Positions 12,528-14,067 of a DNA stretch of 64,000 nucleotides are shown piece by piece; positions within the stretch are counted from its first letter, which is position 1, and each line of letters begins with the position of its first letter. This DNA comes from an uncultured Schlesneria sp. Lineage in GTDB: Bacteria; Planctomycetota; Planctomycetia; Planctomycetales; Planctomycetaceae. The stretch covers positions 1 through 64,000 of the forward strand of contig CAIVEI010000050.1 in NCBI GenBank assembly GCA_903904835.1, read 5' to 3'. The position numbers were made by a program, and so were the translations under genes. The notes beneath the pieces were generated by a model. That model saw nothing but the letters and a program-made list of their open reading frames with translations, ran no database searches and had not been told where the DNA came from.

Positions 12528-12705
12528 TGACAAAGTAAACGTTCACATTACAGAGAATTTGCGGCAGACGAAACGCGCCGTGATCAATCGATTCTTTTGC
12601 AATATCCTGAAGAGCGCGGTTGCCATGTTTTAGTGGCTTGAACTATAAGACCGTTGGCGTTTGCGTTGGCATGATCTTGTCTGACGACCGAGCGGAGACG
12701 AAACA

Positions 12706-14067
12706 TTGGATTTTGGCGATTTGGTCAGTGCGATTCGGATTGTGGAGCTGACGGTCAAACAGCGTCCTGCCGCCATTCGAGCGCTTGTTCAAGCCGCGAA
12801 CTGGGAAGACGAAGGGATCGCTCCCGATACGGTTCTTCAAGCCATCGAAGAACGTGAAGCGGCTGCCCAAACTCTTGTTTCCAGCGATTTTGCTCTGCCA
12901 CACGCCTTCGTCGACTGGGAAGGTGATTTTCGCGTCGTCCTTGGCCGTAGCCGAACGGGGATCGACTATGGCGTCCCCAGCGGCCAAAGCGTGAAACTGG
13001 TCGTGCTGCTGGTCATTGGACGGAAACTGCAGCAAACGCACGTCGAAGTTCTGGCGGGTCTTGCTGAACTGCTGAAGCTGCCCGAGTTCCGACAGCAACT
13101 GATCGACGCAAAAGATACGAAGACGATCGATACGTTATTGCTGGCAAAAGCAGGGATTCAGCCAGATCAGCGTCCCGTCCGTTTTCCGGGGATTCCGCGT
13201 TTAACACAAGTTATCGTCAAGCAGGCGATGCAGTTGGTAGAATCGCTGGGTGCACAGGCATTGCTGATTGCCATCGACCGGCTGGAAAGCGTGCCGTGGG
13301 ATTCGCTGGCTCAGTGGAAGGGTCGATTGCTCATCGTCACGACAGAGCATAGCGAAGATTTTCATATCGACCGTGAAGACACGCACGTGTTTGAAGGCTT
13401 ACACGCTTCCCTTTCCCGTATGGACCGAGCCAATCTCGGGCAACTTCTCGCGTCATCACAAAACCTGTTGCACGAAAAAACCAGCGTGATTTGTGTCACT
13501 GGGCCCGATGGACGGCGGCTTGACAGTATCACCGTCACAAAACCGGAAGCCCATTTCCGGGCCATGTTATCCGAGAAGAACCGTCGTGGAATCGACATCG
13601 TTCGTCCGGCAGTCATGCTCAGGGTCTTATCTCTGGCGGTCGAAATCGCAGCCGAAGGTCGCGAAGCACATCCGGTGGGGTGCATGTTCGTCGTGGGTGA
13701 CGCGCGCAATGTCCTGCGAAACGCACAACAACTGGTCTTGAACCCGTTTCATGGATACTCAAAGCAGCTTCGCAACGTCCTCGACCCGAGTTTGAGTGAA
13801 ACAATGAAAGAATACGCCCTGATCGACGGGGCATTCATCATTCAGGGTGACGGAACCGTCCTCAGCGCAGGGACATACCTCATGCCCAAGTCGTCGCCGC
13901 CGGGTCTTCCGCATGGACTGGGTGCCCGACATCAGACGGCAGCCGCGATTTCAGCTCATACTCTGGCCATGGCAATTACCGTCAGTCAGTCAACCGGGAC
14001 TGTCACGCTGTTCCGCAATGGGACGGCGGTCTTCACCCTTGAACGGGCCGCGACCACGAAGTGGTAG
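12706..14067 (+). CDS. EIIA (PTS type 2) - PK_C-like - DAC diadenylate cyclase
   Basis: A 453 aa three-domain protein. Residues 1-150 match a fructose/mannitol-type EIIA domain: a candidate phospho-histidine at H66 (SSDFALPHAF), then GIDYGVPSGQSVKLVVLLVI and the HVEVLAGLAELLK helix. Residues about 165-290 resemble the pyruvate kinase C-terminal domain (VIVKQAMQLVESLGAQALLI, then LSRMDRANLGQLLA and KTSVICVTG). Residues about 305-445 are a DisA_N/DAC domain: FVVGDARNVL, the DGA motif at D374, and GLGARHQTAA at about 405-413. The PK_C-DAC order resembles archaeal DacZ. RHQ stands where CdaA and DisA have RHR. TTG is the start, supported by GGAG eight bases upstream. It probably makes c-di-AMP under phosphotransfer or metabolite control (inference). 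Confidence 0.85.
   Translation: MDFGDLVSAIRIVELTVKQRPAAIRALVQAANWEDEGIAPDTVLQAIEEREAAAQTLVSSDFALPHAFVDWEGDFRVVLGRSRTGIDYGVPSGQSVKLVVLLVIGRKLQQTHVEVLAGLAELLKLPEFRQQLIDAKDTKTIDTLLLAKAGIQPDQRPVRFPGIPRLTQVIVKQAMQLVESLGAQALLIAIDRLESVPWDSLAQWKGRLLIVTTEHSEDFHIDREDTHVFEGLHASLSRMDRANLGQLLASSQNLLHEKTSVICVTGPDGRRLDSITVTKPEAHFRAMLSEKNRRGIDIVRPAVMLRVLSLAVEIAAEGREAHPVGCMFVVGDARNVLRNAQQLVLNPFHGYSKQLRNVLDPSLSETMKEYALIDGAFIIQGDGTVLSAGTYLMPKSSPPGLPHGLGARHQTAAAISAHTLAMAITVSQSTGTVTLFRNGTAVFTLERAATTKW

Follow-up and report, generated by a model that had tools for sequence, protein, structure and literature searches.

The window, by which we mean the whole stretch of 64,000 nucleotides of an uncultured Schlesneria sp. 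that was analysed, carries a gene for a protein in which an EIIA type-2 domain of the phosphotransferase system (PTS) is joined to a DacZ-like part, consisting of a pyruvate-kinase-C-like (PK_C-like) domain and a diadenylate cyclase (DAC) domain (Table 1). The gene has a TTG start codon, upstream of which only seven further codons are found before an in-frame stop.

Table 1. Features of the EIIA-DacZ fusion gene and its product (positions in the window; residues of the protein)
Feature	Position	Strand	Remarks
EIIA-DacZ fusion gene	12706..14067	+	453 aa plus stop; open frame
Shine-Dalgarno-like CGGAG	12693..12697	+	8 bases 5' of TTG start; read from sequence
EIIA type-2 domain	12709..13155	+	residues 2-150; PF00359 and fold
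H66 codon, predicted phospho-acceptor, motif A-L-P-H	12901..12903	+	column conservation
Pyruvate-kinase-C-like DacZ N-terminal domain	13195..13563	+	residues 164-286; fold, sub-threshold DacZ_T/DacZ_P
DAC catalytic domain	13600..14040	+	residues 299-445; PF02457 and fold
DGA motif	13825..13833	+	residues 374-376; alignment
RHQ, where CdaA/DisA have RHR	13927..13935	+	residues 408-410; alignment

The outer two domains of the initial annotation, EIIA type 2 and DAC, were recovered by Pfam profiles as well as by fold. PTS_EIIA_2 (PF00359) matches residues 14-145 (E 4.4e-17, 62.8 bits, cut-off 27) and DAC (PF02457) matches residues 314-440 (E 2.6e-21, 75.9 bits, cut-off 27). Pfam profiles detect the middle domain weakly: DacZ_T reaches 18.4 bits (E 0.0025) against a cut-off of 27 and DacZ_P 17.0 bits (E 0.0047) against 27.4, both sub-threshold, and PK_C (PF02887) does not match the window protein. 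An AlphaFold model based on 67 sequences (mean pLDDT 86, pTM 0.65, with uncertain inter-domain geometry) was compared with structures in the PDB. Residues 2-150 of this model resemble EIIANtr (1a6j_A, Z 19.2, rmsd 2.2), residues 164-286 the C domain of E. coli pyruvate kinase II (6k0k_D, Z 14.4, rmsd 2.2), and the C-terminal part both DisA (residues 290-445; 9y4s_D, Z 14.9, rmsd 2.1) and CdaA (residues 296-446; 8c4n_B, Z 14.9). The PK_C-like assignment, also made in the initial annotation, therefore holds by fold and not by profile, since PF02887 gives no match. An SGRS-like loop, the motif of a fructose-1,6-bisphosphate site, was not seen by eye in this domain. Six other EIIA-DacZ proteins were scanned, five of which pass the DacZ_P cut-off (L055, L056, L057, L073 and L101; not L076), and three of which have sub-threshold PK_C (PF02887) matches (L055, L056 and L076). 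At the level of the predicted structure the three domains of the window protein are confirmed as real, and a chance fusion or a miscalled frame is ruled out because the whole architecture is conserved across phyla.

The best NCBIfam match is the haloarchaeal DacZ equivalog NF041371 (E 2.9e-34, 118.7 bits, under the cut-off of 430). Together with the PK_C-like fold preceding the DAC domain, this bears out the kinship to DacZ that had been proposed from the sequence at first sight. Scoring below the cut-offs of NF041371, DacZ_T and DacZ_P, the window protein is, as judged by sequence comparison, a divergent DacZ relative outside the curated DacZ sets. Among the NCBIfam models of EIIA domains, the fructose-type IIA scores higher than PtsN (58.1 versus 26.5 bits, both under cut-off), and PHROGs gave no match to the window protein up to E 1.

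Relatives of the protein were collected in a survey of named contigs, comprising 80 loci of 217 relatives, most of them in metagenome-assembled records. Among these 80 loci the closest homologues are from uncultured Schlesneria (98-99% identical). An alignment of 67 rows was made from the window protein and 66 of the 80 named loci, and 56 of its rows carry EIIA. The alignment excludes near-duplicates or redundant kin (L033, L035, L038, L040, L046, L047, L094, L104 and L108), the partial L045, and four loci with truncated- or shifted-looking frames (L072, L084, L091 and L102); the plain DacZ row L110 has a chance His at the H66 column and was not scored as EIIA.

H66 had been singled out earlier as the candidate phospho-histidine, and the comparison upholds this choice. 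In the phmmer alignment to 4gqx, residues R50, H66 and H112 of the query face R, H and H of PtsN. The H66 column contains His in 53 of the 56 EIIA-bearing rows and Gln in the other three (L057, L068 and L071), all of which belong to the Fibrobacterota group of the tree and come from genomes that hold EI, so that a phospho-His is not required in every lineage. When the EIIA rows were filtered at 80% identity (42 rows), R50, A63 and P65 were invariant and H66 was present in 40 rows, compared to a median column conservation of 38% for the domain; H112 is less conserved (32/42). The linker from EIIA to the PK_C-like domain is short in these 42 rows (9-16 residues). All 67 rows share the DGA motif and the RH pair of the DAC domain. 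RH is followed by R in 18 rows, A in 17, Q in 13, T in 7, E in 4, V in 3, Y in 2, and S, N or M in one row each; in plain DacZ rows this position is occupied by E, R, Y, N or M. The RHQ variant, which the initial annotation had flagged as possibly altering activity or marking a separate DAC subgroup, is therefore ordinary variation among DacZ-type proteins, and its use as a marker of activity was rejected.

The initial annotation had pointed to planctomycete genomes as the place to look for this architecture. A single match spans both EIIA and DAC in 27 of 392 genomes taken from the phylum, by a row count that misses split genes, and the fusion also occurs beyond the planctomycetes. The fusion loci are from Schlesneria and other Planctomycetota, Spirochaetota, Fibrobacterota, Kiritimatiellota/Verrucomicrobiota and Hydrogenedentota, as well as from a genome titled Deltaproteobacteria that is placed by the tree in Myxococcota. 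In a tree of the DacZ part with 73 rows, all 56 EIIA rows lie beyond one branch (SH-aLRT 98), requiring one change of the EIIA label. A quick tree of 84 rows, in which 11 plain DacZ proteins were added (6 of the host family, 4 of the class and 1 of the phylum), gives two label changes, with the plain DacZ of family and class on a long branch. Shuffling of the labels gives on average 15.5 changes for 73 rows and about 23.7 for 84 rows, indicating that the fusion is old and has arisen once or very few times. EIIA-DacZ is thus an old fusion kept across phyla rather than a repeated accident, although the trees do not separate gain from loss. That the fusion arose recently and locally, onto plain DacZ from the host's own family, was considered and rejected, as the plain DacZ proteins that were fetched (6 from the family and 4 from the class) form a distant clade of unsure placement.

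Within the host family (28 genomes), six genomes carry the fusion, five of them without plain DacZ and one (G266) with both, while the other 22 have only EIIA-less matches, as judged by match range (Fisher p 6e-5, with relatedness ignored). Since five of the six fusion genomes are without it, the fusion seems to replace plain DacZ in this family. Among the literature matches listed, the titles and abstract openings mention neither an EIIA-DAC fusion nor a functional account of one. The architecture may nevertheless be catalogued elsewhere, because the curated DacZ_T, DacZ_P and DACNV models imply an earlier survey. DacZ-type proteins in planctomycetes are already known, such homologues being listed by Braun et al. 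2019 (PMC6741144), where a word search returned neither 'PTS' nor 'EIIA'.

The partners for a phosphorelay, HPr and EI, whose survey had likewise been proposed, are found nearly throughout. In a search of 69 genomes, HPr was found in 68 and EI in 67; for the host and 27 family members these counts are 28/28 and 27/28, respectively. Two fusion genomes stand out, EI being missing from G215 and HPr from G392. A second search found EI in 23 of 23 genomes, including the three with Q66 (G393 is common to both searches). EI and HPr are equally common in genomes with plain DacZ, and their co-occurrence therefore does not single out the fusion. An HPr-kinase domain scored above cut-off in nine of the 69 genomes, i.e. 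eight genomes that were reached via loci of other phyla, plus G314; control by HPr kinase was set aside for the host family, where the domain was found in 0 of 28 genomes. The EIIC permease family PF02378, the one EIIC family covered by the search, scored above cut-off in one of the 69 genomes and was found neither in the host nor in the 27 searched members of its family. The host PTS therefore looks transport-less and regulatory, and PEP rather than sugar is the likely input. Of the two inputs considered in the initial annotation, the PEP-linked signal is thereby retained, and the state of sugar phosphotransfer becomes the less likely one.

The host genes for these partners lie on another contig, in an HPF-EIIA-HPr-EI cluster (L115:7166-10400, G000:C51), in which a ribosome hibernation factor adjoins a PTS that lacks a PF02378 permease. 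A second HPr-like host protein (L116:6863-7186, G000:C169) appears by eye to be without the usual phospho-His motif. Host EI gave no GAF domain match; PtsP has a GAF domain, according to a 2026 review (PMC13104625). Three EIIA domains were found in the host, namely the stand-alone EIIA of this cluster, an HTH_17-EIIA protein and EIIA-DacZ. The HTH_17-EIIA protein (L134:1409-2125, G000:C60) is possibly a PTS-controlled transcription factor. Other EIIA fusions in the phylum involve Na+/H+ exchanger-type proteins, an amino-acid permease that also has a universal stress domain, and bicarbonate-type transporters. In two of the latter (L139:2173-4245 and L052:4896-6956) the N domain matches both PTS_EIIA_2 and Band_3_cyto, providing a visible bridge from EIIA to the cytoplasmic domain of anion exchangers. 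The picture is that of a regulatory PTS with outputs that are often ion-related. In the 2026 review (PMC13104625), PTSNtr enzymes are also placed in Spirochaetales and Planctomycetales, and K+ homeostasis appears as a principal function of PTSNtr; another paper (PMC11808508) describes for E. coli that unphosphorylated PtsN inhibits the K+/H+ antiporter YcgO.

The bicarbonate-type transporters also bear on the question whether the EIIA domain of the fusion is a phosphate receiver at all. It could instead mediate protein binding or oligomerisation and so bring DacZ to partners such as transporters, with phosphorylation having little effect on the cyclase. Anion exchangers do use EIIA-like folds outside any PTS (human BTR1 was matched at Z 14.9), and the EIIA-like N domains of L139 and L052, as well as the Q66 of three fusions, favour such a role. 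Against this stand the strong conservation of R50, A63, P65 and H66, far above the median of the domain, and the presence of EI and HPr in nearly all hosts searched, and we regard the docking role as unlikely.

The gene neighbourhood is weak evidence for a link to the PTS. In the window, no PTS genes adjoin the fusion gene. When 909 ORFs of the 80 named loci were clustered, no dominant neighbour emerged among the 40 largest clusters; the largest of these span 8 of the 80 loci and mostly reflect planctomycete synteny, with some general families such as histidine kinases. One cluster, reductase-like by eye, also includes a Fibrobacter and a Pontiellaceae locus. BLAST queries of the neighbours with EI, HPr, EIIA, HPF, K+ transporters and others gave scattered matches. 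Among the matches listed, the fusion lies near EI and a zinc-ribbon EIIA in L101, near a zinc-ribbon EIIA and a permease-EIIA in L078, and near a stand-alone EIIA in L061; the same list includes EIIA in L097, a bicarbonate-transporter-EIIA in L052, TrkH in L071 and an Na+/H+ exchanger in L074. Directly upstream of EIIA-DacZ in the Spirochaetales locus L061, a glycosyltransferase-like protein with a C-terminal EIIA is encoded (L061:1922-3463).

Other components of a c-di-AMP system are present in the host. PF02457 matches just one host protein besides the fusion, a divergent DACNV protein carrying the motifs DGA and GTRHR (G000:C152, L002:286-1671), and both a PgpH-type phosphodiesterase and a DHH-DHHA1 protein were found. 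The host also has one c-di-AMP riboswitch (58.5 bits, cut-off 38). With strict filters the riboswitch model matched 9 of 44 genomes, eight of the 28 with the fusion and one of the 16 with plain DacZ; three to four of the eight riboswitch-bearing fusion genomes are close Schlesneria kin. Riboswitch flanks were inspected in six genomes besides the host. The riboswitch is located 5' of TrkH in G216 and 5' of TrkH/KtrB in G247, where one small ORF and then a TrkA_N/TrkA_C gene follow. In G396 it precedes a gene for an AA_permease_2 protein, which we take to resemble KimA. In the Schlesneria genomes G400 and G402 it lies 5' of an SPFH/Band 7 gene (L156:2623-5028 and L157:1035-3299), which is not a K+ transporter. 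Nothing clear was found downstream in G105, nor a clear ORF in the short flank of G086. The host riboswitch (G000:C131) is near a contig end, and the partial ORF next to it resembles by eye the start of the SPFH gene. c-di-AMP is probably used in the host, and in some fusion lineages it is probably tied to K+ import. In Gram-positive bacteria c-di-AMP regulates K+, and since unphosphorylated PtsN inhibits a K+/H+ antiporter in E. coli, a shared K+ or osmotic output of the two systems is plausible.

Control could also run in the opposite direction, with ATP or c-di-AMP bound to the DAC and PK_C-like domains determining how readily EIIA takes up or retains phosphate, so that the protein would sense one of these nucleotides and act on the PTS. 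A nucleotide sensor would also keep substrate-binding motifs, and with just two other EIIA domains found in the host, that of the fusion could be a phosphate sink. Yet DGA and RH are kept across all 67 rows, and the lack of plain DacZ from five of the six fusion genomes of the host family looks as if the fusion does the enzyme's job, which makes this reversal very improbable. Very improbable too is a DAC domain that is inactive or has another product, in a protein that is a regulatory scaffold only. RHQ in place of RHR and the low score against the DacZ equivalog model (118.7 bits against 430) might hint at this. Against it, no row departs from DGA and RH, and the position following RH is variable in the whole group, plain DacZ included; the host also carries both the riboswitch for c-di-AMP and the PgpH-type phosphodiesterase, and its sole other PF02457 match is the divergent DACNV protein.

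EIIA-DacZ shares features with several known systems. The order of a PK_C-like domain followed by DAC, with DGA and RH, is common to the window protein and to DacZ/CdaZ (Haloferax DacZ, Methanocaldococcus CdaZ), to which it adds the N-terminal EIIA type-2 domain, and from which it also differs in a middle domain that falls below the DacZ_T and DacZ_P cut-offs. The DAC fold (Z 14.9 each) with DGA and RH is likewise common to CdaA and DisA. The regulatory part consists of membrane helices in CdaA and is DNA-binding in DisA, unlike that of EIIA-DacZ. With PtsN/EIIANtr the EIIA domain of the fusion has in common its fold (Z 19.2) and the positions of R50, H66 and H112, and the setting is similar, i.e. 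a host genome with EI and HPr and without a PF02378 permease. In contrast to PtsN, which binds its targets, this EIIA is covalently joined to a nucleotide cyclase; moreover, its score is higher for fructose-type IIA (58.1) than for PtsN (26.5), and the host EI is without a GAF match. A link of PtsN to potassium has been reported in E. coli and other species (PMC11808508; PMC13104625). The HTH_17-EIIA, Na_H_Exchanger-EIIA and AA_permease-EIIA proteins and the bicarbonate transporters with EIIA/Band_3_cyto occur in the same phylum and have the same receiver module with a PH motif, but their output is a transporter or a DNA-binding domain, whereas that of EIIA-DacZ is a second-messenger synthase.

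We propose, and consider it reasonably probable, that EIIA-DacZ belongs to the DacZ group and acts as a soluble, phosphorelay-gated diadenylate cyclase, being set by its fused PTS receiver and feeding into K+ and osmotic control. Phosphate would be transferred from PEP via EI and HPr to H66 of the EIIA domain, and the charge state of H66 would alter either the packing of EIIA on the PK_C-like and DAC domains or the pairing of DAC domains. The altered packing or pairing would in turn change the rate at which two ATP are converted to c-di-AMP. The input would most likely be the carbon-energy state, read out as PEP/pyruvate much as a nitrogen-type PTS does, and c-di-AMP would act on potassium and osmotic control, partly via riboswitches. 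We infer the phosphorylation of H66 in the fusion, its allosteric effect and c-di-AMP as the product. Counting against this proposal are the lineage with Q66, the sparse linkage to PTS genes, the presence of EI and HPr beside plain DacZ, and the SPFH gene behind the riboswitch in the host group.

The recurrence of the fusion in several phyla suggests that the PEP state of the cell may directly tune a K+-linked signal. The broader proposal, that EIIA-DacZ represents a widespread class of c-di-AMP synthases commanded by a PEP phosphorelay, leading from a transport-less PTS, as carbon/energy input, via EIIA-DacZ and c-di-AMP to K+ control, with PTSNtr and c-di-AMP signalling merged, we regard as evenly poised. 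If true, two systems that control K+ in other bacteria would be united within one polypeptide. The candidate signal is built into the protein itself, as the histidine that a PEP-dependent relay should phosphorylate, and EIIA-DacZ thereby offers an in vitro test with one residue and one enzyme. The finding also directs attention to c-di-AMP signalling in the Planctomycetota, in environmental Spirochaetota, in Fibrobacterota and in other groups.
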